DNA of 64,000 nucleotides. Source: a bacterium. Its GTDB lineage: Bacteria > Cyanobacteriota > Vampirovibrionia > Gastranaerophilales > UBA9971. Shown in pieces: positions 11,982-29,591 of the stretch. The notes under the pieces were generated by a model that was given only the letters and a program-made list of their open reading frames with translations, ran no database searches and had not been told where the DNA came from. Every line of letters starts with the position of its first letter. Within the stretch, counting starts at the first letter, position 1. Where the stretch lies: NCBI GenBank assembly GCA_037147175.1, contig JBAWVS010000001.1, positions 62,001 to 126,000 on the forward strand. The letters run 5' to 3'. Made by a program: the position numbers and the translations under genes.

Positions 11982-13127
11982 TCATATACTTACAGCCTTT
12001 AAATAATCTTTTGCCAGATTGTTAAACATTTCCTGATTCAACCCCTGCGCCAATTCAAAAACATTTAACTCTGCATCAAGTGCTTCATGAAGGTTTTTTC
12101 GTTTTTCGACAGGGTTTCCTTCCTTGTCAAAAGTCAGATTCACGTCCTTTTTTATGAAATTAAGCATGAAATGAACTGCTTTTTTTCTGTATTCCCTGAT
12201 TTTAGTGTAATTTAGATTTCTTATCGCCAGAGGGTCTATGTTATCAAGGGTTATTCTAACTATAGAATTTTCAAAATCATTTATTTTTGCTACTTCTTCA
12301 TCAATATAGGCGTTAATTTCCTCTGCGGTGAGAGTATCCGCATTAATTTTTTTTATATCAACCACTGTTCTTGGTGTTTGGAGCGGATGAAACGTTATTT
12401 TTTTTGTTTCAAGGTTATATTCAATGAAACCTTTAGGGTCTTTGGCTTCTTGCCAAATATTTGAGCTGGTTCTTTCTATCGCTCCAGAGTAATATATGTT
12501 TTCTTCAAGCTCTGTATATTTGTGATAGTGCCCCAGAGCTACATAATCCCACTCTGAACCGTTAATCTTCTCTGAATCAACAAGTTCTTCGGAGCTATGT
12601 TTGGATAATTCAGGGCATTTTACGCTGTTATAAGAACAATGCATAGTCAAAACATTGTATTTATAACCTCTATCAGGAGTTAAAGTTGTTTTATTGAGTT
12701 CATACAAAGCATTATGCGGAATGCATAAAATGCTTGCATTTAAATTCTCGAAGACAACCTGTTCAATTTGCCCATCTACAACTTTAACATTTGGAATGGT
12801 AGTTTCAAGAAGTTTTAGAATACTTCCTGATTCCACCGACTTTGAAGACTCATGGTTGCCTGAAATTAGAACTATAGGAGCATTGCAGTTTTTTCTGAAA
12901 TTATTAAGAAGCTTAATCGTCAAATAAATTGTGGAATTGCTCGGTCTTGGCTTGTGAAAAATATCTCCCGCCATCAAAACAAGGTCAGGTTTAAGTTCTG
13001 AAACCTTATCAAGTGCTTCTTTAAATGTTTTGACAACATCTTTTTCCCGAATATTCAAGCCTTCAGGACTTAATTTATTATATGACCTGTAGCCCAGATG
13101 CAAATCGGCAAGATGAATAATTTTCAT
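11982..13127 (-). CDS. sbcD: Mre11/SbcD-type DNA repair exonuclease subunit
   Basis: A 381-residue metallophosphoesterase nuclease. The five metal-binding motifs are all visible: HLADLHLGY, LMAGDIFHKP, ISGNHESSK, LTMHCSYNS and ALGHYHKY. The C-terminal third should be the capping and Rad50-binding region (NVFELAQGLNQEMFN). It acts with the Rad50-like protein encoded 13 bp downstream. Upstream herA ends 6 bp before its start, so the genes are tightly packed. The CSYNS block, where many SbcDs have HxH, and the length are closest to the archaeal-like Mre11 branch by eye, but this needs a tree. Confidence 0.93.
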   Translation of the reverse strand: MKIIHLADLHLGYRSYNKLSPEGLNIREKDVVKTFKEALDKVSELKPDLVLMAGDIFHKPRPSNSTIYLTIKLLNNFRKNCNAPIVLISGNHESSKSVESGSILKLLETTIPNVKVVDGQIEQVVFENLNASILCIPHNALYELNKTTLTPDRGYKYNVLTMHCSYNSVKCPELSKHSSEELVDSEKINGSEWDYVALGHYHKYTELEENIYYSGAIERTSSNIWQEAKDPKGFIEYNLETKKITFHPLQTPRTVVDIKKINADTLTAEEINAYIDEEVAKINDFENSIVRITLDNIDPLAIRNLNYTKIREYRKKAVHFMLNFIKKDVNLTFDKEGNPVEKRKNLHEALDAELNVFELAQGLNQEMFNNLAKDYLKAVSI

Positions 13128-13133
13128 AGTGTT

Positions 13134-15119
13134 TTACTCTTTTAACCAGTCGTCAATATCTGTATTGCCTACCGATGGAGAAAGTTTTTCTTCAAAGCTT
13201 TCTCTTTGAGGCTTTTTTCGCAATATATTTTTAAAATATTCGAGAGGATTGTCTTTGCCTTTCCTCTCGGTTTCATTGAAAGCCCTTTTTACTTCTTCTT
13301 TATCGACATCGCAAATAGCGTTTTTAATATCATTCGCTTTGATTTTATGGTCAAGGCGTTTGAAATTAATAATCATTGCATCTTCAAAATTTCTTTCCGC
13401 TACGGGAGGAAACTTTTTAGAGCCGTCCTGACTTGTCATAAAAGGCGGGCGCGGGAATCTTACAAAGATATACTGATTAAAATGCGGATGCCTGATGAGA
13501 AGTTTCCCTTTTTCAAGTACTGTTAATTCGGCTTTAATACTTGAAGGCATGACACTGTAGCCCTGAGAAGCCAGTTCGTCCATGTCCATACGTCCGTAAA
13601 TACTTGTTCCGCAGTTTCCGACAATTCTTTTGTGAACCTGTGATTTAAACTGCTGTGCAGAAAAGAGGATTAAGCCCAAGTATCTTCCTCTTTCGGAAAT
13701 TTCCAGCAGGGTTTGTTTGAGATAAGAATTTCCAGAGTCGCCGGAAGCGTATTTATTAAGCTCATCCACAAAAATTATGACCTTATCAACGCCAAGTTTC
13801 TTGTTTTCAAGCTGTTCTTTCAGTTTTTCAACAGTTCTGGTAAACACCAAATCCTGAGCAATAGGAATCATTCCTGCTATATCTACAACATAAACCCCTT
13901 TGTCTTTAAATTCTCCCCATGGTAAGTCATGCATGGAAGAATCATTAGTCACAAGTCCTTTGCAGCGGGTTTTTATGTTCATAAGCCTGTTATAAATTTT
14001 TCTTATTGTAGGGATTGCATGCCCTCTCCACTGTTGTTTCCCTTCGCCGTTGCCTTTTTCTTCATCTCCTGCTTCTGCGAAAATCCTCTGAAACCATTCT
14101 TCAAGGTCGTTAAAATTCTTTATTTTCTTATGTACGCAATAATGAGAATCCGGTTTATCTTGATTTATCACTTTTTCTTTCATGAAAGAAAGAAAAGCAT
14201 CCGCCTTTGCATCGATATCATCATTGTTTAAAAGCACCTGCACATGGTCAAAAATCTCTTCCAAACCCCAGCTTAATGGATTTACGTTGTGCATAAGGTG
14301 ATCATTTGTTCTTAAGGTGTTTAAATTTACTCCGTCATCCTTATAAGGAGCGTAATATTCAACATTTTCAAAAGCATTTACTTCCATACCAAGCTTTTTA
14401 TACATTTCTTTTTCTTCTTCAGAAAGATTTTCCGCAGGCTGGTCAAGAAACAAAAGGTCATAACCTTTTACATTAAAAAGAACCGTAGCAATTTTTTCAT
14501 TGTTATCGCTCTGATACTTTTGAAAAATGCTGCTCAAAAGGAATTCTATAATGCTGGTCTTTGTTGCAAGCCCTGAAACTCCTGTAACATTCAAATGTGC
14601 GGCTTCCGGCCCTAAAAGGAAATTAGAATCAAGATAAACAGGAGATTGGTTTTCCCCGTTTACGTAAAGCCCGACAGGGATTTGGGAATCTTCAAATTTA
14701 TCCATTCTCAGGGATTTTTTTACGTCAGCATCCTCCGCCAGAAAGACATTTCCGATCGGGACAGGCTGAATAGGTTCTTCAGGTTCCATTTTTAAGACAG
14801 ATGCCGTGTAATACCTTATTTCCGGTCTTTCTGTCTGGGCAAGGCGGTTTTCTTGAGGCTCCCTATCGGCACTTATGTAATCATGCATCGGTGATTCCAG
14901 GTCGGTGTAGCTTATGCCTTCATTTACAATTCCGTAAATCGTTCTTTTGTATTCCGCATTTTTTTTATCGGAATAAACCCTGTCGCTCTCAATCTTGACA
15001 ATGGTTCCAATTCCTACAGGAGAGTCAAGATTTGTCCAAAAACTGAAAGTCTGTGCAGTATTAGGCTTTTTTTCAGTTGCAACAACTCTTCCTATAACTT
15101 TATTTTCTGTTTCGTTCAT
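13134..15119 (-). CDS. herA: HerA/FtsK-type DNA translocase ATPase
   Basis: The protein has 661 residues. An N-terminal HAS-barrel-like region (IGRVVATEKKPN, IGTIVKIES, IYGIVNEG) is followed by a RecA-like core. The expected P-loop is LNVTGVSGLATKTSIIEF around residue 176; here a threonine precedes the lysine, not the usual glycine, so the loop is non-canonical. Walker B is VIIFVDELNKYA (about 446). The HerA-type sensor/arginine region LLEISERGRYLGLILFSAQQ and NCGTSIYGRMD follow. HerA forms a hexamer that pumps DNA and works with NurA nuclease in end resection. Here the NurA-like gene is immediately upstream (63 bp) and Mre11/Rad50 genes downstream (6 bp), which strongly supports the call. 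Confidence 0.85.
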   Translation of the reverse strand: MNETENKVIGRVVATEKKPNTAQTFSFWTNLDSPVGIGTIVKIESDRVYSDKKNAEYKRTIYGIVNEGISYTDLESPMHDYISADREPQENRLAQTERPEIRYYTASVLKMEPEEPIQPVPIGNVFLAEDADVKKSLRMDKFEDSQIPVGLYVNGENQSPVYLDSNFLLGPEAAHLNVTGVSGLATKTSIIEFLLSSIFQKYQSDNNEKIATVLFNVKGYDLLFLDQPAENLSEEEKEMYKKLGMEVNAFENVEYYAPYKDDGVNLNTLRTNDHLMHNVNPLSWGLEEIFDHVQVLLNNDDIDAKADAFLSFMKEKVINQDKPDSHYCVHKKIKNFNDLEEWFQRIFAEAGDEEKGNGEGKQQWRGHAIPTIRKIYNRLMNIKTRCKGLVTNDSSMHDLPWGEFKDKGVYVVDIAGMIPIAQDLVFTRTVEKLKEQLENKKLGVDKVIIFVDELNKYASGDSGNSYLKQTLLEISERGRYLGLILFSAQQFKSQVHKRIVGNCGTSIYGRMDMDELASQGYSVMPSSIKAELTVLEKGKLLIRHPHFNQYIFVRFPRPPFMTSQDGSKKFPPVAERNFEDAMIINFKRLDHKIKANDIKNAICDVDKEEVKRAFNETERKGKDNPLEYFKNILRKKPQRESFEEKLSPSVGNTDIDDWLKE

Positions 15120-16457: not shown

Positions 16458-16538
16458 TTTTACTATATCGGTATTTTATTTTAAAACTTTAATGTTTTTT
16501 TAAAATAAAAAGGGAAATTTTTATTCCTGTTATTGAGC

Positions 16539-16613
16539 AAAAAAAATGCCGCTCTTTTGGGGCGGCTACTAGACTCGGGGGAGGAGGTTTGGGTATGGTC
16601 GATTAGGACCTTA
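16539..16613 (-). ncRNA. candidate small RNA B, sibling of A
   Basis: The same plan as copy A: a 5' hairpin GGTC/GACC (16598-16610) with a changed loop, the identical CU-rich linker (16579-16596), a terminator hairpin (16548-16566) and eight T (16539-16546). The loop of the terminator is one base shorter. The upstream CATTAAAGTTTT block is shared with A. Further upstream, TTTGTAAAGATGTTGTAA (rc of about 16664-16683) resembles the element before the small-protein genes. Confidence 0.6.
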
Positions 16614-16929
16614 CATTATTTGTTTCGACATTCTTTTATAAAAACTTTAATGATTTCCTGCTTTTGTTACAACATCTTTACAAAAAAACTCAACTTAAAA
16701 TAATATTTTAATTAAAAATTTTTTAAAAAAAATACTGAAATTAAAAGAATTTTTAGACCCGATTAATGCCCGACCGTTTAAATTAATAACTCTTCAAAAT
16801 AACATTATTTTTGAATATTAGACAGGCAGGTTATATAAAATTTTTGAATATTAAACAAAAATTAAACAGTATAAACAGTCGTTTAGTTTACCGTTTAAAT
16901 ACATGAGTATATTTTTGTAGGGAGGAAAA

Positions 16930-17052
16930 ATGAGTAACATTGCGGATGGTTTTTTAAGAATACTAAAAAGTCACTTATATTTGTCATTTCCGATTATTTT
17001 GATTTCTATTCTTAATACTTTTATATTTATGTTTTTATTTAAAACTTTTTAA
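16930..17052 (+). CDS. 40-residue membrane peptide
   Basis: A small gene with a very strong ribosome-binding site, GGGAGG six bases before the ATG. The peptide starts MSNIADGFLRILKSH and then is a single hydrophobic segment (LYLSFPIILISILNTFIFMF) ending LFKTF. One transmembrane helix with the basic residues on the N-terminal side is expected. It lies alone between the small RNAs and tetR (convergent with tetR, 22 bp gap). No homologue recognised; it could be a toxin-like or regulatory small membrane protein, but nothing else supports this. Confidence 0.55.
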   Translation: MSNIADGFLRILKSHLYLSFPIILISILNTFIFMFLFKTF

Positions 17053-17074
17053 GCAAATAAACATGTTTTGAACT

Positions 17075-17677
17075 TTATTTATTTTTCGAATTGTTTAATA
17101 TTGTTAAAACGCTTTTTAGATGCTCTTCCAGTTCTTCTTTAGAAACATTATCCCTTACACCAAATAGAATTTCATTGTAATATTTACCTTTTAATAGCGA
17201 AATTAAATGATCAGCATATTTTGAGGGAGAAGAGACCTGTATTAACCCTTTTGCTGCGGCTTTTGAAATAAATTTTTCCAGCATAATGTAGGTTATCGAA
17301 GGGCCTATGTTATAAAAATTCTTTGTTATGTTAGGATTAGTAGCCATTTCGCTTAAAACTATGCGATGAACCGCGCATAATTTCTCGTCGATTACAAGTT
17401 TTAGAAAATTTTTGCAAAATTTTTCCAGTAAAATATCAAAATTTTCTTCAGTAACTTCTACGTCTTCAATATCTTTATAGTATTTTTTGCTTTGATTAAT
17501 CACAATTTTTTGCAAAATAATTTGTTTATTTTCAAAATTATTATAAATAGTTTGCTTGGAAACACCTGCTTCTTTCGCCACTTCATCCATAGAAGTGTTA
17601 TTATAACCGCATTTTAAAAATAATTTAAAGGCGGCATTAAATATTAACTCTGATTTGTTTTTCATAATAATTCGCAT
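17075..17677 (-). CDS. TetR/AcrR-family transcriptional repressor
   Basis: A 200-residue regulator. The N-terminal helix-turn-helix is clear: IFNAAFKLFLKCGYNNTSMDEVAKEAGVSKQTIYNNFENKQIIL (cited in part). The C-terminal ligand-binding domain is variable (AVHRIVLSEMATNPNI, YADHLISLLKGKYYNEILFG) and of the AcrR/TetR_C type. It is divergent from the TPR/PKS operon with a 104-bp gap that holds a 17-bp palindrome over the -35 box, so it most likely represses that operon and itself. The start may be the fifth codon (MKNKSEL); neither ATG has a clear ribosome-binding site. The ligand is unknown. Confidence 0.9.
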   Translation of the reverse strand: MRIIMKNKSELIFNAAFKLFLKCGYNNTSMDEVAKEAGVSKQTIYNNFENKQIILQKIVINQSKKYYKDIEDVEVTEENFDILLEKFCKNFLKLVIDEKLCAVHRIVLSEMATNPNITKNFYNIGPSITYIMLEKFISKAAAKGLIQVSSPSKYADHLISLLKGKYYNEILFGVRDNVSKEELEEHLKSVLTILNNSKNK

Positions 17678-17710
17678 TTTCTAGTTCATTGGATCATTTT
17701 ACAGAAAATA

Positions 17711-17742
17711 GACTTGACAGTCCAGTCCACTTTCTGTAGTCT
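17711..17742 (+). promoter_or_regulatory. TetR operator overlapping a sigma-70 promoter
   Basis: The palindrome GACTTGACAGTCCAGTC (17711-17727) matches its reverse complement at 14 of 17 positions. It contains the -35 box TTGACA (17714-17719); 17 bp later is TAGTCT (17737-17742) as a weak -10. A wider ACAGAAA...TTTCTGT inverted repeat surrounds it. A repressor bound here would block the promoter of the gene at 17782. Confidence 0.6.
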
Positions 17743-17781
17743 TAACAATATTCTTAATAATTTTCAAATGGAGAATAAAAA

Positions 17782-18441
17782 ATGATTAAAAAAAGAGCAT
17801 ATTTTTTTATTTGCTTAATTGCATTGATGTCTAATGTGGGTTGTCTTGCCGTCAGTGCATTTAATTTAATTTCTTTTGATGAAGAAATAGCGCAAATTCG
17901 TTATAATGTAACTGCTATCGAACATATATATTCCAAGAACGATAATGCAGGAAAAACCAGAGCGTACGAAGAACTTATCAAAAAAGCCGATAAATTAGTT
18001 GTACAATATCCTGATAGGGCAGAACCCTATGTTTGGGAAGGAATAGCTTTATCTGCTCAGGCAAAATACAAAGGAATCGGAGCAATATCAAATGTAAATA
18101 CAGCAAAAGCGTTGTTGGAAAAATCAGTAAAAATTAATCCCGATGCTTCGGGTGCGGCAGGGCTGAATGCCCTTGGAATGTTGTATTATAAAGTTCCTGC
18201 ATGGCCTGTTAGCTTCGGTAATGATAAAAAAGCTCAAGAATATTTCTATAGAGCCCTATCAATATCTTCCAACCTCGATACAAATTATAGATACGGTGAA
18301 TTTTTATTGGAAGAATCCAAAATAAAAGAAGGACTGAGTTATCTTAATAAAGCTTTAAATTTCCCCTTAAGGTCAGGCAGAAAAGAAGATCCGTTAAAAA
18401 AAGAAGATATTAAAAAACTAATTGAAAAGTATAAAGGGTAA
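17782..18441 (+). CDS. exported TPR-like protein
   Basis: A 219-residue protein with an N-terminal signal sequence (KKRAYFFICLIALMSNVGCLAVSA); the LMSNVGC could be a poor lipobox but is more likely part of a signal-peptidase I type leader. The body has helical repeats of TPR kind: GKTRAYEELIKKADKLV, YPDRAEPYVWEGIAL, LLEKSVKINPDASGAAGLNALGMLYY and NLDTNYRYGEFLLEESKIKEGLSYLNKAL. The PAWPVSFGNDKKAQEYFYRAL box is shared with a family of periplasmic TPR proteins of unknown role. It is the first gene of the operon and ends 9 bp before the type III PKS. It could hold the synthesis complex or carry a lipid product; that is a guess. Confidence 0.7.
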   Translation: MIKKRAYFFICLIALMSNVGCLAVSAFNLISFDEEIAQIRYNVTAIEHIYSKNDNAGKTRAYEELIKKADKLVVQYPDRAEPYVWEGIALSAQAKYKGIGAISNVNTAKALLEKSVKINPDASGAAGLNALGMLYYKVPAWPVSFGNDKKAQEYFYRALSISSNLDTNYRYGEFLLEESKIKEGLSYLNKALNFPLRSGRKEDPLKKEDIKKLIEKYKG

Positions 18442-18450
18442 AAATAAAGT

Positions 18451-19497
18451 ATGACGTGTGTGATAAAAACAAATACTTTGCTTCCTGAATATAAGCATTC
18501 TGAGCAGGAAGCCATAGAACAATATAAAAATTGGGTATCGGAAAAAAGCCAATCGTTTCAAAACAAAGCAATAAAAATCTTTGAAAGTGCTGTTATAAAA
18601 GAAAAACATACAATTGCACCTGCTGAAGTTCTTTTTAGCAAAAGAACTTTTGAAGAAACAAATAATTTATACAAAGAAAAAGCAGTGGAATTTGGAACAA
18701 AAATTTTAGCGGATACATTGCAAAAAACAGAAATTAAACCTGAAGAATTGGACTTTATCATAACCACATCCTGTACAGGGTTTATGATTCCTTCATTTGA
18801 TACTTATGTGATTAACAGTTTGGGATTGAGAAAAGACATAAAGAAGCTTCCGATAACCGAAATTGGTTGTGCGGCAGGAGCATCAGCATTAATTTATGCC
18901 AACGATTTTTTAAAAGCATATCCTGATAAGAAAGCAGCTGTTATTACTCTTGAATTTCCTAGTAATACAATCCAGTTGGATGATTATAGCTGGGATAATA
19001 TTGTAGGGACAGCATTATTTGCTGATGGAATAGGATGCGCAATACTGGGAGAAAATATTCGGGGGTGTCCTGAAATTATTGATTCACAAATGCATCAGGT
19101 GGTCGATACAACTGAAATTTTAGGTTATAACATTACAAACACAGGTTTGAAAATGAATCTCGATAAAACTATTCCGAATGTGATTGAAGAACATTTTGAA
19201 CAGATAGTTTCGGATTTTTTAAACACAAATGGCTTAAAAATAGAAGATGTAGACCATTTTCTGATTCATCCGGGCGGAATAAAAATTCTTAACAAAATTG
19301 AAAATATTCTTTCTAAATATAATAAAAATGTCGATATTTCCAGAAAAATTATGGAAACATACGGCAATTTATCGAGCAGTACAATACTTTTTATTTTAAA
19401 TGAATATATGAATAATACTGCCGCTGGAGAAACTGCTTTAGTATTGAGCTTTGGTCCCGGATTTTCAGCGCATCAGTTACTTTTAAGATGGAATTAA
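18451..19497 (+). CDS. type III polyketide synthase (chalcone/alkylresorcinol synthase-like)
   Basis: A 348-residue thiolase-fold homodimer. The catalytic triad is complete: Cys140 (EIGCAAGAS), His273 (LIHPGG) and Asn306 (YGNLSS). SCTGFMIPSFDTYVI and the C-terminal LSFGPGFSAHQLLL match the family; this ends the usual GFGPG loop. These enzymes extend an acyl-CoA starter with malonyl-CoA and cyclise it to pyrones, resorcinols or related phenols. The neighbours (quinone reductase, UbiE-like methyltransferase, U32 protein) resemble the tailoring logic of phenolic-lipid operons such as srsABC, where a PKS is followed by a methyltransferase and a flavoprotein hydroxylase. Product unknown. Confidence 0.9.
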   Translation: MTCVIKTNTLLPEYKHSEQEAIEQYKNWVSEKSQSFQNKAIKIFESAVIKEKHTIAPAEVLFSKRTFEETNNLYKEKAVEFGTKILADTLQKTEIKPEELDFIITTSCTGFMIPSFDTYVINSLGLRKDIKKLPITEIGCAAGASALIYANDFLKAYPDKKAAVITLEFPSNTIQLDDYSWDNIVGTALFADGIGCAILGENIRGCPEIIDSQMHQVVDTTEILGYNITNTGLKMNLDKTIPNVIEEHFEQIVSDFLNTNGLKIEDVDHFLIHPGGIKILNKIENILSKYNKNVDISRKIMETYGNLSSSTILFILNEYMNNTAAGETALVLSFGPGFSAHQLLLRWN

Positions 19498-20090
19498 AAA
19501 AAATGAACAAAAAGAAAAAAATATTATTAATAGACTTACACCCTGACAGTCAAAGTTTTTGCTCTGTTATGGCACAAAAATACGTAGACGGTGCTATTGC
19601 TTCAGAATTTGAGGTGAAAATTATCAAGGTCAGAGAATTGAATTTCGATAATGTGCTTCATTTCGGTTATAGAGAAATTCAAGCTCTTGAACCAGACTTG
19701 ATTCAAGCACAGGAAGAAATTAAGTGGTGCAGCCACCTTGTATTTATCACTCCAGTGTGGTGGGGCTCTATTCCTTCCAGTGCAAAGGGCTTTATTGACA
19801 GAGTTTTATTAAGCGGATTTTCTTATAAGTTTGATATAAAGAAAAAAAGACCTGTCGGTTTACTGAAAAACAGGTCGGCAAGCGTGATTTATACACAGGG
19901 AGCGCCTTTTATTTACAGCAAATTTTTTACAGGAGATGCCTTCTGGAATTTTATGAAAATTTGTATTCTTCAGTTTTGCGGCTTTTCAAACATTAAAAGA
20001 AAATGCTTTGATAAAGTAAAGTCGGGAACAGATAAAGAAAGATTGAAAATTTTAAACGAAACTTATGAACTTGGAAAAAAAGGATTTTAA
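19488..20090 (+). CDS. flavodoxin-fold NAD(P)H quinone oxidoreductase-like protein
   Basis: The protein has up to 200 residues. The N-terminus KKILLIDLHPDSQSF is the FMN/FAD phosphate-binding strand of the Flavodoxin_2 (NQO/MdaB) family, and VFITPVWWGSIPSSAKGFIDRVLLSGFSY is its hallmark isoalloxazine loop. These proteins reduce quinones by two electrons or act as flavin reductases. The first ATG overlaps the PKS stop by 10 bp; a second ATG at 19503 (MNKKKKILL) is also possible and neither has a strong site. It would either keep a phenol/quinone product reduced or supply electrons to a tailoring step. Confidence 0.85.
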   Translation: MELKKMNKKKKILLIDLHPDSQSFCSVMAQKYVDGAIASEFEVKIIKVRELNFDNVLHFGYREIQALEPDLIQAQEEIKWCSHLVFITPVWWGSIPSSAKGFIDRVLLSGFSYKFDIKKKRPVGLLKNRSASVIYTQGAPFIYSKFFTGDAFWNFMKICILQFCGFSNIKRKCFDKVKSGTDKERLKILNETYELGKKGF

Positions 20091-20093
20091 GAT

Positions 20094-20861
20094 ATGACTA
20101 TTCATGACAACAAGTCCAAATTACAACTTCTGGAAGATGTGGGATTTGTAAAATATTTTACCGGAAACTCATGGAGTGAGTATAACAGGAAATTTTTTGA
20201 TAATCTTGCCAAAAAATATGATGCCACAAACGCTTTGCATAGCTTTGGCACGAAAAGTATTATTGACAAAAAATCAATTGAAAAAATCCATTTTCCTGTA
20301 AACGCCTCTGTGCTTGATTTATGTACAGGAAGTGGAGATATCTGCATTAGGATAGCAAAGAAACATCCTGATTTTAAAATTATAGCTCTCGATGCATCGG
20401 AAAAAATGCTTGAAATAGCAAAACAAAAAGCAAAAGGCTGCAATAATATTGATTTTGTAAAAGGTGACGCCTTAAGCCTGCCTTATGAAGATAATTCATT
20501 TGATGTTTTAATAATAAGTTTCGGACTTCGGAATCTTGAAAATATTCAGGCAGGACTTAAAGAAATGCAAAGAGTTGTAAAATCCGGCGGTTATGTAGTT
20601 AATATTGATCAGGGAAAACCTGAAAATCCTGTCTTTAAAGCTCTTTATCAAGTTTATTTTTACGGCATAGCTCCATTAATAGGGAAATTAATTTTTCATA
20701 TGGGAGAATTTAATTCTTTCAAATATTTGCCCGAATCTAACAAATATTTTCCTTCCCAGCAAGAACTTGTGAAAATTTTTGAAGAAGTCGGATTTAAAGA
20801 TATAAATAATTACAATTACTGGCTTGGCGCGATTTCTCAACAAATTGCGAGGGTCGAATAA
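20094..20861 (+). CDS. UbiE/MenG-like SAM-dependent C-methyltransferase
   Basis: A 255-residue protein. FDNLAKKYDATNALHSFGT is the UbiE/COQ5 N-terminal signature. The SAM site is SVLDLCTGSGDICIRIA, with IALDASEKMLEIA as the acidic loop. Then SFGLRNLENIQAGLKEMQRVVKSGG and the C-terminal YNYWLGAISQQIA, all as in MenG/UbiE. These methylate a quinone-ring carbon. It starts 3 bp after the reductase stop, and its own TAA overlaps the next ATG (TAATG), so translation is coupled. In this operon it more probably methylates the PKS product than menaquinone, but it could serve both, so menG is not assigned. Confidence 0.85.
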   Translation: MTIHDNKSKLQLLEDVGFVKYFTGNSWSEYNRKFFDNLAKKYDATNALHSFGTKSIIDKKSIEKIHFPVNASVLDLCTGSGDICIRIAKKHPDFKIIALDASEKMLEIAKQKAKGCNNIDFVKGDALSLPYEDNSFDVLIISFGLRNLENIQAGLKEMQRVVKSGGYVVNIDQGKPENPVFKALYQVYFYGIAPLIGKLIFHMGEFNSFKYLPESNKYFPSQQELVKIFEEVGFKDINNYNYWLGAISQQIARVE

Positions 20862-22072
20862 TGAAATTATCGATTGCTACAAATTTTGATAATGAATTAA
20901 TAGAACAAATAAAAGATTATCCTGTCGAAGAGCTTTATGGAAAACTTTCAAAGGACTTTGTCGGAGGAGGAAGATCTTCCTATATGCTTGCACCTGTTGA
21001 AAAAAACATATTAGTAGAACATATAGCCCATGCAAAAAAATACAATATAGGATTCAATTATCTTTTGAATGCAAGTTGTATAGATAACCTTGAAACAACC
21101 AGAGATGGGCAGAAACAAATCAGAAAATTGCTGGACTGGCTTACAAAAATAGGCGTAACTTCACTTACTGTGTCGACTCCATTTTTATTGCAGACAATAA
21201 AAAAGAGTTATCCGCACTTTCGTGTGAGAATTTCTGTTTTTGCGTGTGTTAATAACCTTAGAAAAGCACAATACTGGGAAGAAATGGGTGCAGATATAAT
21301 TGCGCTTGATTCGCATGTATTAAACAAAGATTTTAAAACACTCAAGCTTTTAAAAGAAAAACTTTCCTGCGGGATGGAAATTTTGACTAACGGAAATTGC
21401 CTTATGAATTGCATGATGGCTCATGTGCATCCGAATTTAATGGCTCATAGCTCGCAATCAAAGCATACTTCCGACGGATTTGTTATAGACCACTGTTTTT
21501 TGTACTGTCAAAAAAAGAAAACGGAAGAACCCGCAAATTATTTAAAGTCAGACTGGATACGCCCTGAGGATATACATTACTATGAAGAAATAGGCTATGA
21601 AAACTTTAAGCTGGTAGAAAGAAATATCAAAACGGAAGAAATGGTAAAAAGAGTAAAAGCTTATTCCAATCGTTCTTATGACGGAAACTTACTTGATTTG
21701 GTTCAGGGGTTTGGATTTAAGGACCAACAAAAACTTTCAGCAAATTCAAAGTTTAATAAACTGGCATTTTTCTTTAAACCTACAAAAATTAATATGTTTA
21801 AATTAAATAAAATTAAAGAACTCTGCACAAGAAAAGGAATGTTGTTGCCGCTTAAATCTGTTCCCGTTTATATTGATAACAAAAAACTGGATGGATTTAT
21901 TGAACCTTTTTTAAAAAGATCCTGTATGGATTTAAATTGCGGGATTGACTGCAAACATTGCGATTACTATGCCGACAAAGTTATCACAATTGATACTGCA
22001 TTTCAAAAAGATTGTATTCAACTCCATAAAGATATAGATGATGATATTTATTCAGGAAAAATGTGGAAATAA
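20861..22072 (+). CDS. U32-family Fe-S protein (UbiU/UbiV-like hydroxylase candidate)
   Basis: A 403-residue protein of the so-called peptidase U32 family. Cysteines that could bind [4Fe-4S] are at 180, 184, 212 and 216 (NGNCLMNC and DHCFLYC), the region used by UbiU, UbiV, TrhP and RlhA. WIRPEDIHYYEEIGYENFKLVERN is the family's barrel-end motif (IxPEdi...G-x-FKIEGR). An extra C-terminal cluster Cys355-360-364-367 (CMDLNCGIDCKHC) is unusual. UbiU/UbiV hydroxylate the ubiquinone ring without O2, using prephenate. Coupled to a UbiE-like gene in a PKS operon, this suggests an O2-independent ring hydroxylation. Real peptidase activity is unlikely. Confidence 0.75.
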   Translation: MKLSIATNFDNELIEQIKDYPVEELYGKLSKDFVGGGRSSYMLAPVEKNILVEHIAHAKKYNIGFNYLLNASCIDNLETTRDGQKQIRKLLDWLTKIGVTSLTVSTPFLLQTIKKSYPHFRVRISVFACVNNLRKAQYWEEMGADIIALDSHVLNKDFKTLKLLKEKLSCGMEILTNGNCLMNCMMAHVHPNLMAHSSQSKHTSDGFVIDHCFLYCQKKKTEEPANYLKSDWIRPEDIHYYEEIGYENFKLVERNIKTEEMVKRVKAYSNRSYDGNLLDLVQGFGFKDQQKLSANSKFNKLAFFFKPTKINMFKLNKIKELCTRKGMLLPLKSVPVYIDNKKLDGFIEPFLKRSCMDLNCGIDCKHCDYYADKVITIDTAFQKDCIQLHKDIDDDIYSGKMWK

Positions 22073-22090
22073 TATCCGAATTTTTATAAA

Positions 22091-25000
22091 TTATTGATAT
22101 TTATTTTCGTTGTCATTTGAGGAATCCAGTGTTTCTCCTGTAGGAGCAATAGTTTTATTCTTCCTGAAATTTTCCCTTAAAGACAGAACTAAAATATAAA
22201 AAACAGGAATAAAAAGCAGGTTTAAAACTGTTGAAACCAGCATTCCGCCAAATATAGCTGTTCCCATAGACTGACGGCTCGCAGAACCGGCTCCGGTTGA
22301 TAAGACTAACGGCAAAATACCAAGCATAAATGACAGTGATGTCATTAAAATGGGGCGAAAACGAATGGCTGCTGCCTGCATTACCGCATTTTTTATTGAT
22401 AATCCTTTTTCATGAAGCTGATTTGCAAATTCAACTATTAAAATAGCGTTTTTGCTTGCAAGACCAATCAGCATAACCATACCAATCTGACAAAAAACGT
22501 CATTTTGAAACCCGCGTGTAAATTGTGCCAATAATGCCCCAAAAATAGCCACCGGTACAGCCATTAAGATTATAACAGGATTCATAAAGCTTTCATATTG
22601 GGCTACAAGTATTAAAAATATAAATATAAAACTTAAAGCAAAAATAAATGTGGCTTTAGAGCCTGATTCCATTTCTTCTAATGCAGTTCCAGACCATTCA
22701 AAAGACATTCCCTGAGGGAGAACTTTTTTGGCAATAGACTCCATTTCCTTAATCGCTTCGCCTGAACTGCGTCCAAAGAAAGGAGAGCCGTTTATTTCAG
22801 AAGATCTGAACAGGTTGTAATGACTTATTGTCTGCGCAGTATATGTTTGTGAAGTTGAGATAAGGTTTGAAAGCTGAATCATAGAGCCGTTTTGTGAACG
22901 GACATAGAATTGACCGATATTGTCAGGATTGTTTCTGAATTGCTGATCAGCCTGAATATAAACTCTGTATACCTTGTTAAGATAGTCAAAATCATTGACG
23001 TACATTGAACCTAAAAATACTTGCATAGTCGTATAGATGTCCTGCAAGGAAATATTTAATTGTTTTGCCTTGAATTTATCAACTTTAACCATTACCTGTG
23101 GGTTGTTTGCACTGAAACTCGAAAAAAGACCGAGCAGGACAGGTGATTTGCTTCCTGTCGCAATGACAGACTGAGTTGCCGAACTTAATTCATTAAGAGT
23201 ATGTCCGTCCTCATCTTTAATTTCAAACTGAAATCCTCCGATATTTCCGACACCTTGAATTGCAGGCGGTTCAAACGGCATAATAATAGCGTTCGGTATT
23301 CCCATGAGTTGACCTCTGAGTCTGTTTACAACGGCATTTACAGAATGTTCATTGCCGCTTCTTTCCCTGAGAGGTTTTAAGGAAATAAACTGGATGCCTT
23401 TATTAGGTCCGTTTCCCATAAAGCTAAAACCTCCTATGGAAACGGCATAAGCAATTTCAGGAGTTTGACGATAAATATATTCGGCCTGATCAAGAACTTT
23501 TTCAGTTTGAGAAAGAGAAGACCCTTCAGGTGTTTGAATAATTGAAACAATAAATCCCTGATCTTCATTTGGAACAAAGGCTGAAGGAACTATTTTGAAC
23601 AATAAATATGTTGCTCCGATTAAAAGACAAAATATAGTCAAAGTGGGCTTTATATGCTGAATAACAAAGTTGAGTAATTTGTTATAAAAATTTCTGGTAT
23701 TTTGAATAAAAATATTTACTTTGTCAAAGAACAATGATTCTTTATGTTGATGAGAAATTAATAAAGCCGCCAAGGCAGGGGTTAATGTTAATGCATTAAA
23801 TGTCGATATTGCGATAGAAAAGGCAATTGTGAGAGCAAATTGTTTGTACAGCTGACCGGTTACTCCGGGGAAAAAAGCAATCGGGACAAAAACGGCTATA
23901 AGTACAAGAGATGTTGCTATAACTGCGCTAAACACTTCTTTTGTTGCTTCTACTGCTGCTATAGCAGGAGGCATGCCCTTTTCTTTTATAAAACGTTCAA
24001 TATTTTCAATAACAACGATTGCATCATCAACAACAAGACCTGTTGCCAGAGTTATTCCAAACAATGTAAGTGTATTTATCGAGAATCCAAAAAGCTTCAA
24101 GAAGGCAAAAGTTCCTATTAAAGAAATAGGTATTGTAATTGCCGGAATAATAGTTGTTCTCCAGTTTTGAAGAAAAATATAAATTACCGCTATAACAAGT
24201 AAAATTGCGCCTAAAAGAGTGAAAAGAACTTCCTTGATGGACTCATTGACAACTTCTGTCTCATCAACAATTTGCTTGTACTTCAAACCTGCAGGAAAGC
24301 TTTCAGAAATCTTTTGCATTTCTTTTTTTACATTATTGCTGACTTCCAACGCATTGGCATTTGGAAGCTGGAAAACACCTAAAGCAATAAATTCCTGCCC
24401 CATAAATTTGGCTGTTGAAGAATAGTTCTCTGCACCGAGTTCTGCATAACCGACATCGCTTAATCTTACAAAACTGCCGTTTGAGCCTGTTTTTATTATA
24501 AGATCATTAAATTCTTTAACAGTTTGTAATCTTCCGGAAGTTTTAACACTCATTTGTATTGATTGATTGCTGTTAACGGGGGGTTGACCTATTTGACCCG
24601 CTGCTACCTGAATATTTTGTTCTTGAAGAGCTTTAATCACGTCACCGGCGATTAATAATCTGGCTGCAAGTTTCCCCGGATCAAGCCAAAGTCGCATTGC
24701 ATACTTTCTTTCTCCGAATATATTAACTGAACCAACGCCTTTTACCTGTTTTAACCTGTCTTTTATAAAACGATCCGCATAATTGCTTATGAAAGAATTA
24801 TCGTATTTGCCGCCATCCGAGTATAAACCGTAGATTAAGAGCATTGCGGTTGAATTTTTTTGAATGCTGATGCCGGTTGATTTAACTTCAGCAGGGAGTC
24901 TTGCCTCTGCCATTTTTACCCTGTTCTGTACTTCCATCAAAGCCGCATCAAGGTTTCTGTTCAAATCAAAGACAATATTAATAACGCTTGTTCCATCGTT

Positions 25001-25252
25001 ACTGCTGCTGGAAGTAATATATTTCATTCCTTCTACGCCGTTAATTTCCTGTTCTAAAGGCGTAGTTACAGAAGATTCAACAGTTTGTGAATTAGCTCCG
25101 ATATAATTTGTTGTTACTGTGATTTGAGGGGGAGCGATTTGTGGATATTGGGCAACAGGAAGCATCGGAATACAAATAGCACCTATTAACAGAATTATTG
25201 CAGAACAAACTCCTGCAAATCGTGGTCTTTTAACAAAAAAATCTATAAACAT
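22091..25252 (-). CDS. RND efflux pump inner-membrane transporter (HAE1, AcrB-like)
   Basis: A 1053-residue pump subunit with 12 transmembrane helices and two large periplasmic loops. The start MFIDFFVKRPRFAGVCSAII is typical. The proton-relay motif TLATGLVVDDAIVVIENIERF (two Asp) and the matching GLASKNAILIVEFANQL (Lys) in TM10 are present, so the pump should be active. PVAQYPQIAPPQITVTTNY is also standard. The first periplasmic region marks the multidrug (HAE1) group rather than metal pumps. It starts 3 bp after the adaptor gene, in the order adaptor then pump. It is convergent with the U32 gene (18-bp gap). Confidence 0.95.
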   Translation of the reverse strand: MFIDFFVKRPRFAGVCSAIILLIGAICIPMLPVAQYPQIAPPQITVTTNYIGANSQTVESSVTTPLEQEINGVEGMKYITSSSSNDGTSVINIVFDLNRNLDAALMEVQNRVKMAEARLPAEVKSTGISIQKNSTAMLLIYGLYSDGGKYDNSFISNYADRFIKDRLKQVKGVGSVNIFGERKYAMRLWLDPGKLAARLLIAGDVIKALQEQNIQVAAGQIGQPPVNSNQSIQMSVKTSGRLQTVKEFNDLIIKTGSNGSFVRLSDVGYAELGAENYSSTAKFMGQEFIALGVFQLPNANALEVSNNVKKEMQKISESFPAGLKYKQIVDETEVVNESIKEVLFTLLGAILLVIAVIYIFLQNWRTTIIPAITIPISLIGTFAFLKLFGFSINTLTLFGITLATGLVVDDAIVVIENIERFIKEKGMPPAIAAVEATKEVFSAVIATSLVLIAVFVPIAFFPGVTGQLYKQFALTIAFSIAISTFNALTLTPALAALLISHQHKESLFFDKVNIFIQNTRNFYNKLLNFVIQHIKPTLTIFCLLIGATYLLFKIVPSAFVPNEDQGFIVSIIQTPEGSSLSQTEKVLDQAEYIYRQTPEIAYAVSIGGFSFMGNGPNKGIQFISLKPLRERSGNEHSVNAVVNRLRGQLMGIPNAIIMPFEPPAIQGVGNIGGFQFEIKDEDGHTLNELSSATQSVIATGSKSPVLLGLFSSFSANNPQVMVKVDKFKAKQLNISLQDIYTTMQVFLGSMYVNDFDYLNKVYRVYIQADQQFRNNPDNIGQFYVRSQNGSMIQLSNLISTSQTYTAQTISHYNLFRSSEINGSPFFGRSSGEAIKEMESIAKKVLPQGMSFEWSGTALEEMESGSKATFIFALSFIFIFLILVAQYESFMNPVIILMAVPVAIFGALLAQFTRGFQNDVFCQIGMVMLIGLASKNAILIVEFANQLHEKGLSIKNAVMQAAAIRFRPILMTSLSFMLGILPLVLSTGAGSASRQSMGTAIFGGMLVSTVLNLLFIPVFYILVLSLRENFRKNKTIAPTGETLDSSNDNENKYQ

Positions 25253-25255
25253 TGA

Positions 25256-26434
25256 TTAATTACCTTTTTCAATAATTGCGACAGGAGCGCCATCCATTAA
25301 TTTCTGTATTCCCTGTGTTACAATTTGCTCACCTTGAGTCAAACCGCCGAGAATAACGTATTTGTCACCTTGAATATTACCAAGTTTAACCGGTTTTTGT
25401 TTTACAAAAGGCTTTTTGTCTTTTAAATTAACGACATATACAAAGTCCTGACCGCCAAAATTAACTATTGAACCTGTCGGAACTAAAATTCCTTTGATAT
25501 CACTGTAAACAACCCGTGCTTTAACTGATTGATCGGCTTTTAAAATCCCGTCAGCATTAGAAATAATTGCTTTAACTAAAATTGTTTGAGTGTCTTTATC
25601 TATAACAGGGGATACAAAAGAGATTTTTGAACGTTTGATTACATTATTGTCGTTATCTAAAATCTCAACAGACAAGCCATTTTTAACATCAAACACCTTG
25701 TCTGAAGGCAATCCGACATTGGTTTCCAGCGTATCATTTTGTGTAATGCTTAATAAAGGCGTGGTTGGATTTACATAACTTCCTGTTTTTACCGGAATAT
25801 CGCCAACAATTCCATAATAAGGAGCTGTAATTTTGTAATATTGAAGCTGTAGTTGCTGTTCTTTAATGGCAAAATCGGCTTTTTCAATTTCTGCTTTTTG
25901 CGCTTCAATTTGTGCAGCATTAGCCTCAAGATCAAATCTGGCTTTGTTATAGCTGTCAGTATATTTTTCTAAATCCTGCTTACTGACGGTATTCTTTGAA
26001 TATAAAGCTTTATATCTTTCATACATTTGTTTGTTATATTCAAAATTTGATTCTGAAATTTTTCTTTGAGCCTGATAATTATAAAGAGCTGCCTTTGCCG
26101 CAGAAACATTTGCCTGACTTGAATTTAAAACTGATTCCTGTTTGCGTTTGTCAATAAGCATTAATAATTGACCCGCTTTGACATGTTCACCTGCTTTAAC
26201 GTAAATATTCGCAATTTGACCCGAAATTTGGGGTTGAAGAACAACCGAATAGCGAGAAATAAGATTTGCCTGATAGATCTCGGAATTTATAACTTTTGAT
26301 GCTTTTATAACAGTTGTTTCTACCGGCATGGGAGGCATTGCCCCCATAAACGGAGGTTTGTTGCATCCTGTCAAACCGATTAATGAAACAATCATTAATG
26401 AAATTAAAGTTAATTTATTTTTAGCGCTATTCAT
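25256..26434 (-). CDS. RND efflux periplasmic adaptor (AcrA-like lipoprotein)
   Basis: A 392-residue adaptor. The N-terminal signal ends in a lipobox (LIGLTGC), so it should be a lipoprotein anchored to the inner membrane. Then a barrel-sandwich/lipoyl hybrid pair (QPQISGQIANIYVKAGEHVKAGQLL and ITAPYYGIVGDIPVKTGSYVNP), a long alpha-helical hairpin (about 105-205), and C-terminal beta barrel. It links the AcrB-like pump to a TolC channel. The gene lies 41 bp downstream of the ABC permease gene and 3 bp upstream of the pump gene; the only TolC in the window is at the start of the same run of genes. Confidence 0.93.
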   Translation of the reverse strand: MNSAKNKLTLISLMIVSLIGLTGCNKPPFMGAMPPMPVETTVIKASKVINSEIYQANLISRYSVVLQPQISGQIANIYVKAGEHVKAGQLLMLIDKRKQESVLNSSQANVSAAKAALYNYQAQRKISESNFEYNKQMYERYKALYSKNTVSKQDLEKYTDSYNKARFDLEANAAQIEAQKAEIEKADFAIKEQQLQLQYYKITAPYYGIVGDIPVKTGSYVNPTTPLLSITQNDTLETNVGLPSDKVFDVKNGLSVEILDNDNNVIKRSKISFVSPVIDKDTQTILVKAIISNADGILKADQSVKARVVYSDIKGILVPTGSIVNFGGQDFVYVVNLKDKKPFVKQKPVKLGNIQGDKYVILGGLTQGEQIVTQGIQKLMDGAPVAIIEKGN

Positions 26435-26475
26435 ATTTATTTAACTCCTGTGTTTTAAGAAACAAGTATAATACG

Positions 26476-27705
26476 TTATTCATACCTGAGGGCATCTATC
26501 GGGCTGAGCAAAGAGGCTTTGTATGCAGGATAAAACCCGAAGAAAATACCCACTACCCCTGAAAATCCAAATGAAAGAATTATTGATAAAGGCGAAACCA
26601 TTGTAGGCCAACCGGCAGCAGATGAAATTAAGTTCGCTCCGAGTATGCCGATTAAAATTCCGACAATGCCACCTGATAATGACAGCATGAGGGCTTCTAT
26701 AAGAAATTGAAGGCGAATATCCCATGTTTTTGCGCCTATTGCCATTCTTATTCCTATTTCTTTCGTTCTTTCAGTGACAGAAACAAGCATTATGTTCATA
26801 ATTCCTATACCTCCGACAAGCAAAGAAATAGACGCAATTGCTCCAAGCAATAAAGCCATTACATTTGATGCCTGTTGAGCCATTTGCATCATCTGAGTGA
26901 GGTTTCTTATGCTAAAATCATCTTCCTGTTTCAGCCCAATATGATGTTTTTCTTTTAATAAAGCCGTTATTTCTTCTTCCGAAGTGCTTAAGGCTTCTGC
27001 ATTATTTGCTTTTACCATAATAATCCTGACCATTCCTGGAAATTCAGAGCCAAAAAGTTTTTTCTGCCCGGTTGTCAGAGGAATATAAATCCCGTCATCC
27101 TGATCTTGACCGACCATAGATTGTCCTTTTCTTTCAAGAGTCCCTATAACTTTGAACGGAATCCCTTTTATCCTGATGATTTTTCCAAGAGGATCAAGGT
27201 CGCCAAAAAGGTTTATAACAACAGTTTGCCCTAAGATACAAACTTTTGTGGCATTTTTTACGTCTTCATTAGTGAATATATTGCCTGAAGAAAGTCCCCA
27301 ATCTCTAATATCAAGTAAATTAGGGGTTGAGCCTATAATTTGTGTAGACCAGTTCTGGTTTCCGAATACAATTTGACCTGTGCCCGAAACAATCGGAGCA
27401 ACATTAGCAACAGAAGAACATTCTTTTTTTATAGCCTCGGCGTCTTTTACTGTTAAAGTCGGTTTGCTGCCCATGCTCATTCTCGTTCCTCCGGAAGTTG
27501 TTGCTCCAGGCATTACGATAAGAAGATTACTTCCCATTGTTGAAATCTGGTCTGAGACTTGCTTGCTTGCTCCAGAGCCTACTGCAAGCATTATTATAAC
27601 GGCGCTAACCCCTATAATTATCCCGAGACTGGTCAGGATTGAGCGCATTTTATTGACTTTTAGGGCTCTATATGCAATTTTTATCGTGGAAGAAAGGTCA
27701 ATCAT
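26476..27705 (-). CDS. MacB-type ABC transporter permease
   Basis: A 409-residue permease with an N-terminal membrane segment (MRSILTSLGIIIGVSAVIIMLAVG), a periplasmic MacB_PCD domain (about 45-265), and a C-terminal FtsX domain with three helices containing GIMNIMLVSVTERTKEIGIRMAIGA (coupling helix), as in MacB and YknZ. In contrast to E. coli MacB the ATPase is a separate gene just upstream (25 bp). MacB systems are mechanotransmitters that drive export of peptides, antibiotics or lipids through MacA and TolC. The gene lies 41 bp before the AcrA-like gene. Confidence 0.92.
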   Translation of the reverse strand: MIDLSSTIKIAYRALKVNKMRSILTSLGIIIGVSAVIIMLAVGSGASKQVSDQISTMGSNLLIVMPGATTSGGTRMSMGSKPTLTVKDAEAIKKECSSVANVAPIVSGTGQIVFGNQNWSTQIIGSTPNLLDIRDWGLSSGNIFTNEDVKNATKVCILGQTVVINLFGDLDPLGKIIRIKGIPFKVIGTLERKGQSMVGQDQDDGIYIPLTTGQKKLFGSEFPGMVRIIMVKANNAEALSTSEEEITALLKEKHHIGLKQEDDFSIRNLTQMMQMAQQASNVMALLLGAIASISLLVGGIGIMNIMLVSVTERTKEIGIRMAIGAKTWDIRLQFLIEALMLSLSGGIVGILIGILGANLISSAAGWPTMVSPLSIILSFGFSGVVGIFFGFYPAYKASLLSPIDALRYE

Positions 27706-27730
27706 AATTATTTGCTTTTTCTCTCTTTTA

Positions 27731-28426
27731 TTACCGGTATTTGGTTTTAATTTCGTCGCTTACAACGTATCCGTCTTTAAATCTTATAATTCTTTTCGAA
27801 TATTCGGCAATTTCTGGCTCATGAGTTACCAGAATTATGGTTTTTTTTGATTCCTTATTAAGTTTAACAAACAGTTCCATTATTTCACAGCTTGTTTTTG
27901 TGTCCAAGTTTCCTGTGGGTTCATCTGCCATAATTATAGGCGCATCATTAACTATAGCCCTTGCTATTGCCACTCTTTGTTGCTGCCCGCCGGAAAGCTG
28001 ATTAGGTGTATGATGAATCCGTCCTTCAAGACCTACTGTTTTAAGGGCTTCTGTTGTTTTAATTTTTCTTTCAAATAAAGATTTGCCGCTGTATATCATA
28101 GGCAGTTCAACATTTTCCATTGCAGAAGTCCTCGGCACAAGGTTAAAACCCTGAAAAACAAACCCTATCTTTTCGTTTCTGATGCTTGCAAGTTCATCTC
28201 TCTTTAAATTGCTTATATTTATGCCGTCAAGCAGGTATTTTCCTTCTGTAGGTTTGTCAAGGCAGCCGATAATATTCATAAAAGTTGACTTGCCTGAGCC
28301 GGATTGTCCCATTATTGAAACAAAATCGCCTGCTTCAATAGATAATGAAACATCTTGAAGCGCATTAACCTCAACATCGCCCATTATATAGGTTTTTCTA
28401 AGCTGACTTGTACTTATAAGTGACAT
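27731..28426 (-). CDS. ABC transporter ATPase of MacB/LolD type
   Basis: A 231-residue ATPase. It has Walker A GQSGSGKST, a Q-loop in FVFQGFNLVPRTSAMENV, signature LSGGQQQRVAIARA, Walker B PIIMADEPTGNLD and switch His LVTHEPEIAEYS. These are the full features of the MacB/LolD/YknY group. It pairs with the separate permease encoded 25 bp downstream. The MacA-like gene stops 1 bp before this start, so the operon is tight. Confidence 0.95.
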   Translation of the reverse strand: MSLISTSQLRKTYIMGDVEVNALQDVSLSIEAGDFVSIMGQSGSGKSTFMNIIGCLDKPTEGKYLLDGINISNLKRDELASIRNEKIGFVFQGFNLVPRTSAMENVELPMIYSGKSLFERKIKTTEALKTVGLEGRIHHTPNQLSGGQQQRVAIARAIVNDAPIIMADEPTGNLDTKTSCEIMELFVKLNKESKKTIILVTHEPEIAEYSKRIIRFKDGYVVSDEIKTKYR

Positions 28427-28427
28427 A

Positions 28428-29591
28428 CTACCGCATTCCCATTCCCATTCCCTGAGGTCTGCTTTTTTGCCCTTTTGCTTTATCTATTTCGTGTATAATC
28501 ACTTCTTGACCTTCATGGAGCTTTCCTGAAACTATTTCAATGTTTTCTCCGTCGCTGATGCCTGTTTTTATTTTAATTCTTTCAGGTTCTTTATTTTTTA
28601 ATATCCAGATTCCTTGATCTTTATATTTAGGGGCATCCTCGTCAGTATTTGGAGTAAATCTCAAGCCTGCATTAGGAATCATCAATATATTTTTCTTTTT
28701 AGAACTAATTATAGACACATTTGCGGTCATACCCGGTTTAAGTTTCAGGTCTTTGTTATCTACATTTACGACAACATCGTAGGTAACAACGTTTTGGACA
28801 GTTGTCGGAGTGATTCTTATTTGCTTTACCTTTCCTTTAAAAGTCATATCGGGATACCCGTCGAGAGTATATTCAACATCCTGATTGAGTTGAACTTTGC
28901 CTATATCCGCTTCTGCCACGTTTGTGTCAATCTGCATTTTTGTTAAATCTTGTGCTACAAGGAATAATGTCGGAGTTTGAAAGCTTGCTGCCACAGTTTG
29001 ACCGACATCTACGTTTCTTGTAATAACTATACCGTTAACAGGTGAGATGATTCTTGTATATCTTAAATTTGTCTGATTGTTTCTTAATGCCGCGGAAGCC
29101 TGTGCGATTTGCGCCTGTGCTGAAGCTATCTGAGCTTTGTCGGAATTATAAGTTGTTTCCGCCAGATCAACCTCGCTTTTGGAGATAAAATTTCTTTCAT
29201 ACAGCGATTTATTGCGATTATAAGTTTTTTCATCGTTTATTAAAATACTTTTTATCTTTTGAAGATTTGCCTGAGCATTGTATACATTTGCGCTTCCTTG
29301 AGCCACCTGGGCTTCAAAGATAGACGGATCAATCTGAGCCAGCAGCTGACCCTTTTTTACGGGAGAATTAAAGTCTACATACAAGTCTTTAATGGTTCCT
29401 GAAACCTGGGTTCCAACGCTGATGCTGGTTACGGGATTTACTGTTCCTGATGCGGTAATTGATTCAATTATATCTCCTTTAGCAACAGGTTCTGTTTTGT
29501 ATTTTACAGGGCTTTTTGTTCCTTTAATTATAAAAATCGACAGAGAAACAATTGATATTAAAACGATTATGCTGATAATTATTTTTTTCAT
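28428..29591 (-). CDS. MacA-like periplasmic adaptor
   Basis: A 387-residue adaptor with an N-terminal membrane anchor (KKIIISIIVLISIVSLSIFII), barrel-sandwich segments (VSGTIKDLYVDFNSPVKKGQLL and IISPVNGIVITRNVDVGQTV), an alpha hairpin of about 100 residues rich in Ala and Gln, and a beta barrel. The C-terminal tail is rich in Gly/Met (PQGMGMGMR). It connects the MacB-type permease to TolC. Its ATG overlaps the TolC stop by 4 bp (ATGA), a sign of translational coupling. Confidence 0.93.
   Translation of the reverse strand: MKKIIISIIVLISIVSLSIFIIKGTKSPVKYKTEPVAKGDIIESITASGTVNPVTSISVGTQVSGTIKDLYVDFNSPVKKGQLLAQIDPSIFEAQVAQGSANVYNAQANLQKIKSILINDEKTYNRNKSLYERNFISKSEVDLAETTYNSDKAQIASAQAQIAQASAALRNNQTNLRYTRIISPVNGIVITRNVDVGQTVAASFQTPTLFLVAQDLTKMQIDTNVAEADIGKVQLNQDVEYTLDGYPDMTFKGKVKQIRITPTTVQNVVTYDVVVNVDNKDLKLKPGMTANVSIISSKKKNILMIPNAGLRFTPNTDEDAPKYKDQGIWILKNKEPERIKIKTGISDGENIEIVSGKLHEGQEVIIHEIDKAKGQKSRPQGMGMGMR

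Follow-up and report, generated by a model that had tools for sequence, protein, structure and literature searches.

Ring hydroxylation of the phenolic and quinone lipids built by type III polyketide synthases (PKS) is thought to need O2. The window analysed here, a stretch of 64,000 nucleotides of bacterial DNA, places a type III PKS gene in one run with genes for a quinone-reductase-type flavoprotein, a UbiE/MenG-family methyltransferase and a U32 protein, which raises the question of whether such a lipid could be made and oxidised in the absence of oxygen. The reading favoured here, with a probability of roughly 0.4, is that of a specialised-metabolite operon in which a phenolic or pyrone lipid would be methylated by the MenG-like enzyme, oxidised without O2 by the U32 protein and kept reduced by the flavodoxin-type quinone reductase; we infer its substrate, reactions, oxygen donor and tailoring roles from the genes. 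An O2-independent phenolic-lipid operon is plausible at this locus.

Layout of the locus and its host genome

The features of the locus are collected in Table 1. The five genes from the TPR protein to the U32 protein are separated by 9 bp, a 10-bp overlap, 3 bp and a 1-bp overlap on one strand, and such packing argues strongly, at the level of sequence, for a single operon. The earlier note had described five tightly spaced or overlapping genes on this strand, and the open reading frame coordinates and domain matches bear this out. The TPR protein has no Pfam match. The operon is unlikely to be a contaminant or a recent import, since its five genes have a GC content of 0.32-0.34, compared with 0.33 across the window, and its PKS groups with members of the same class.

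Table 1. Features of the locus, in window coordinates
Feature	Position	Strand	Remarks
TetR-family regulator	17075..17677	-	TetR_N and AefR-type C-terminal domain; divergent to the operon
Intergenic region, presumed promoter/operator	17678..17781		Imperfect palindrome 17705-17733, not above chance
TPR protein	17782..18441	+	Signal-peptide-like N-terminus; weak NCBIfam matches to BstC/PilW
Type III PKS	18451..19497	+	Cys140-His273-Asn306
Flavodoxin_2 family NAD(P)H oxidoreductase, quinone-reductase type	19488..20090	+	PF02525, 116 bits
UbiE/MenG-family methyltransferase, divergent, N-terminal extension	20094..20861	+	TIGR01934
U32 protein, separate branch	20861..22072	+	CX3C ... CX3C and C-terminal C-x4-C-x3-C-x2-C

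The TetR palindrome proposed earlier did not hold up. The best candidate in the 104-bp gap, at about 17705-17733, scores 22/29 and was equalled or beaten in 47 of 300 shuffles, and promoter-like matches in the gap between the TetR and TPR genes are no more frequent than in shuffles. Control of the operon by TetR is plausible from the divergent orientation of the regulator gene. On the other side, an RND pump gene (22091) lies 18 bp downstream of the operon and is convergent with it. It begins a series on the - strand (22091-31102) encoding an RND efflux pump (permease and adaptor) and then a MacAB-like ABC transporter, an adaptor and a TolC-type protein; these pumps are a possible export route for the operon product. 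Upstream of the operon lie an SbcD/Mre11-like nuclease (11982-13127) and, adjoining it, a 661-aa protein (13134-15119) whose sequence has the look of a HerA-type ATPase.

The genome assembly comprises 2.66 Mb in 109 contigs and is 99.44% complete. Among its genes are those for a group A6 [FeFe]-hydrogenase, which scores above its cut-off, and for the futalosine pathway markers MqnA and an MqnP-type prenyltransferase. Its hydrogen metabolism is therefore of the anaerobe type, and the futalosine route is its probable way of making menaquinone. Given the hydrogenase, an O2-free route would make sense in this host. Gene content and kin point to a relative of Cyanobacteria that does not photosynthesise (Vampirovibrionia/Melainabacteria). 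The earlier note held that lack of conservation in related genomes would refute its idea, and the gene set does lack it: no second copy of the five genes was found in 10 genomes of the family, 339 of the phylum and 382 of the class, which leaves the set unique to the window genome among those sampled. A literature search found, among the papers covered, no description of clusters pairing U32 proteins with type III PKSs, or with loci of the type encoding ribosomally synthesised and post-translationally modified peptides (RiPPs).

The type III PKS and its relatives

The PKS matches Chal_sti_synt_C with 83 bits, and Cys140, His273 and Asn306 fall within the expected motifs GCAAG, HPGG and GNLSS. 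Chalcone-synthase fold domains and a Cys-His-Asn triad mark it as a type III PKS, and the complete triad claimed earlier is confirmed residue by residue. No PKS relatives were found in the 9 other family genomes examined, and the best matches among 339 phylum genomes reach 33% identity. Three closer matches were obtained from the 382 class genomes, in G543 of the same order (47%), G372 (42%) and G402 (38%), and these form a clade of four with the window PKS (100/99 in the tree). A search of genome contigs gave a single, distant PKS match.

The neighbours of these relatives bear on the likely product. The closest, in G543 (locus L164), has an ICMT gene alongside. The G372 gene is flanked by a class I methyltransferase and a FAD_binding_3/geranylgeranyl-reductase-like oxidoreductase, and the G402 gene has no recognised neighbours on a contig that ends there. 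The L164 arrangement is that of bpsAB, in which an alkylpyrone synthase of the same PKS class is paired with an ICMT methyltransferase; the window operon differs from bpsAB in having three extra genes and no ICMT-type methyltransferase beside the PKS. Among solved structures in the PDB, the best full-length match is Pks11 of M. tuberculosis, an alkylpyrone synthase.

In the light of these observations an alkylpyrone operon is a serious rival: pyrones are suggested both by the nearest PKS relative and by the nearest solved structure. The PKS would then make alkylpyrones in the manner of Pks11 or bpsA-type enzymes, the methyltransferase would methylate the pyrone, and the U32 protein and flavodoxin would serve redox upkeep or some other oxidation of the chain. 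A quinol, however, would suit a methyltransferase of the MenG type and a flavoprotein of the quinone-reductase type better than a pyrone would, and the ICMT of the closest relative is absent; overall this account is judged somewhat unlikely. It also bears on the product predicted in the earlier note, a methylated alkyl-hydroquinone or quinone. The idea of a dedicated lipid or phenol operon is supported, but the bpsAB-like pairing of the closest PKS relative with ICMT makes an alkylpyrone product just as probable as a resorcinol or a quinone.

Comparison with 48 other type III PKS loci shows what the operon lacks and what it has instead. Their commonest neighbour is a FAD_binding_3 oxidoreductase, counted when adjacent to the PKS or one gene away, which occurs in at least 31 of the 48, often with a methyltransferase; the count is a lower bound because the flanks are mostly 1.5 kb. 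None of the 48 contains a relative of the window Flavodoxin_2 or U32 protein, and no FAD-dependent oxidoreductase gene is present at 16600-22400 of the window. By this comparison, the usual FAD oxidoreductase is missing and the U32 protein and flavodoxin are found instead.

The operon shares a PKS, a methyltransferase and a redox protein with hidABC (hierridin, picocyanobacteria), with planctomycete type III PKS operons and with srsABC (Streptomyces). It differs from the hid and srs operons in that their redox protein is a FAD-dependent oxidoreductase, which does not accompany the PKS and methyltransferase in the window, where the U32 protein and Flavodoxin_2 occur; its methyltransferase is of the MenG type, and gene order and PKS clade also differ. 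The hidABC and planctomycete operons, which combine methyltransferase, oxidoreductase and PKS, make alkylresorcinols, and heterologous tests left the role of the hid-type FAD oxidoreductase open (PMC10896814). For this reason, replacement of a hydroxylase by the U32 protein is partly an assumption.

The methyltransferase and the housekeeping menG

The operon methyltransferase belongs to the MenG/UbiE demethylmenaquinone methyltransferase family, scoring 204 bits against model TIGR01934 (cut-off 158). It differs from MenG/UbiE in its N-terminal extension, its operon context and its divergence, with 48% identity to the menG product of the same-genus genome G009, while MqnA of the same pair of genomes is 80% identical and the menG genes of G008 and G009 are 88% alike. 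It sits on a long branch inside the family (80/81). A conserved His of the family is gone, the window copy reading NALHSFGTK in place of N..[IM]SFG.H; this His is kept in E. coli UbiE and in all eight sister sequences compared.

The operon copy is also the sole UbiE-type match above 47 bits in the assembly. At this level of completeness, and with futalosine markers in the genome, the enzyme could be the real, fast-evolving MenG of the organism, in which case the flavodoxin, UbiE and U32 trio would alter menaquinone and the PKS would be a chance or loose neighbour. The loss of the His and the overlapping PKS gene argue against this account, as does synteny. About 0.5 kb separates menG from a STAS-type gene in both G008 and G009, and in G009 menG also directly adjoins rnpB. 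In the window genome, contig C21 starts 248 bp before the STAS gene and contig C83 ends beside a Bax-inhibitor-like gene, on the other side of the expected menG place. The rnpB gene was not found in the assembly either although, to our knowledge, no living cell of this kind can do without it. Since the syntenic place of menG falls in an assembly gap and rnpB is missing too, the housekeeping menG most likely went unassembled and the operon UbiE is probably an extra, diverged copy. The account of a real MenG is therefore considered improbable. For the earlier note, this methyltransferase being the only MenG of the genome was part of what would refute its idea; it is the only copy in the assembly, and that is probably an artefact of the same gap.

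The gap between C83 and C21 (loci L143 and L144) is an observation in its own right, as an assembly that is 99% complete hides an essential RNA gene there, probably together with menG. Short interspersed repeats are its likely cause; a repeat motif found near L107:7611-7730 has dozens of copies in this genome. In two sister genomes (L109:5392-6768 and L110:4160-5533), menG is fused behind an acylneuraminate-cytidylyltransferase-like domain, and in two others menG and the acylneuraminate-cytidylyltransferase-like gene are adjacent and unfused.

The U32 branch and the proposed pathway

The U32 protein scores 41.8 bits against PF01136 (cut-off 22.4). Its cysteines at 180, 184, 212 and 216 and a C-terminal cluster at 355, 360, 364 and 367, both of which the earlier note had recognised, give the motif N-x-x-C-x3-C, C-x3-C 28 residues on, and C-terminal C-x4-C-x3-C-x2-C. 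U32 enzymes have been reported to hydroxylate without O2 (PMC11574389, PMC6747719), and the cysteine spacings of UbiU, UbiV, TrhP and RlhA all differ from that of the window protein (PMC6747719, PMC11574389). The motif of UbiU is CX6CX16CX38C and that of UbiV CXnCX12CX3C (PMC6747719).

The window protein shares with UbiU and UbiV a U32 domain with cysteines and a redox or quinone context, and differs from them in its cysteine spacing, its extra C-terminal cluster, its separate branch and the lack of a partner subunit, the operon holding one U32 gene. A tree constrained to place it with UbiU and UbiV was rejected (p-AU 1.3e-5, to be read with caution given long branches). Kinship with UbiU/UbiV is thus rejected by motif, missing pair and tree, and the comparison may be kept only as an analogy, in that the protein may work like them. 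With the RNA hydroxylases TrhP and RlhA it likewise shares the U32 domain. Their CX6CX15CX3C motif is absent, the TrhP model gives 17.9 bits against a cut-off of 534, and the protein falls outside both in the tree, so that the grouping with tRNA- or rRNA-modifying members which would have spoken against the earlier note was not found. RNA modification is covered elsewhere in the genome, since TrhP-like and RlhA-like proteins are among its remaining U32 members.

Matches to the U32 protein occur in only 10 of the 382 class genomes, one of them the genome of the window itself, and none were found in plasmids or viral contigs, so that the branch is a rare one. The window protein and its relatives form one side of a branch (95/82). 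The C-terminal cysteine cluster is present in all 16 relatives and N-x-x-CX3C in 15 of them. Identities of 25-31% and long branches indicate that the branch is old and that functions may differ within it; we know of no member with a known reaction. AlphaFold2 run on the window protein alone, without an alignment, gave a pLDDT of 36.

Several of the relatives directly follow genes for small Cys-rich leader-type peptides, TupA-type ATP-grasp proteins and radical SAM proteins, and these neighbours suggest that relatives in the branch work in RiPP-like pathways. The U32 protein of the window might accordingly modify a peptide or protein rather than a polyketide, the operon coupling two functions. 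In the operon we saw no peptide gene of the RiPP type and neither radical SAM nor ATP-grasp genes, and this alternative is regarded as very improbable. The RiPP-like loci in gut-type relatives (L140:4507-6851; L141:2571-4871; L071:6234-8876 and 16500-19127; L073:7478-9917; L137:2953-9494) combine small Cys-rich peptides that share a leader-like start (e.g. LTDQEIESIYSDI), TupA-type ATP-grasp, radical SAM and a U32 protein of the window branch. Two B12-type radical SAM proteins of L137 resemble rSAM_ocin_1. No NCBIfam model matched the peptides or the tested U32 proteins of these loci.

In the favoured pathway of an O2-independent lipid operon, the PKS would use malonyl-CoA to elongate a fatty acyl-CoA, giving an alkylpyrone or alkylresorcinol, and the MenG-like enzyme would C-methylate the ring. 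The U32 protein, through one or more putative Fe-S clusters suggested by its cysteines, would carry out an O2-free oxidative change such as ring hydroxylation, with prephenate perhaps serving as oxygen donor by analogy with reports on other U32 proteins. The flavodoxin-type reductase would keep the resulting quinone as the quinol. Handling of the lipid may fall to the TPR protein, perhaps together with the adjacent efflux pumps, and TetR may sense the lipid. Of the earlier proposal that the U32 protein replaces an O2-dependent hydroxylase, the vacant FAD position, filled in at least 31 of the 48 other loci and here accompanied by U32 and flavodoxin, speaks in favour, while the supposed relationship to UbiU/UbiV has fallen away.

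A broader and rather doubtful extension is that the branch with the C-terminal cysteine cluster represents a new class of O2-independent natural-product tailoring enzymes, acting on a polyketide lipid here, in place of an O2-using flavoprotein, and on ribosomal peptides in the gut relatives. The five-gene set is small and directly expressible. If the U32 protein does carry out the hydroxylation, secondary metabolism would join ubiquinone and RNA as a field of U32 chemistry, and anaerobes would have an alkyl-quinone route that is missed by searches keyed on flavoprotein hydroxylases.
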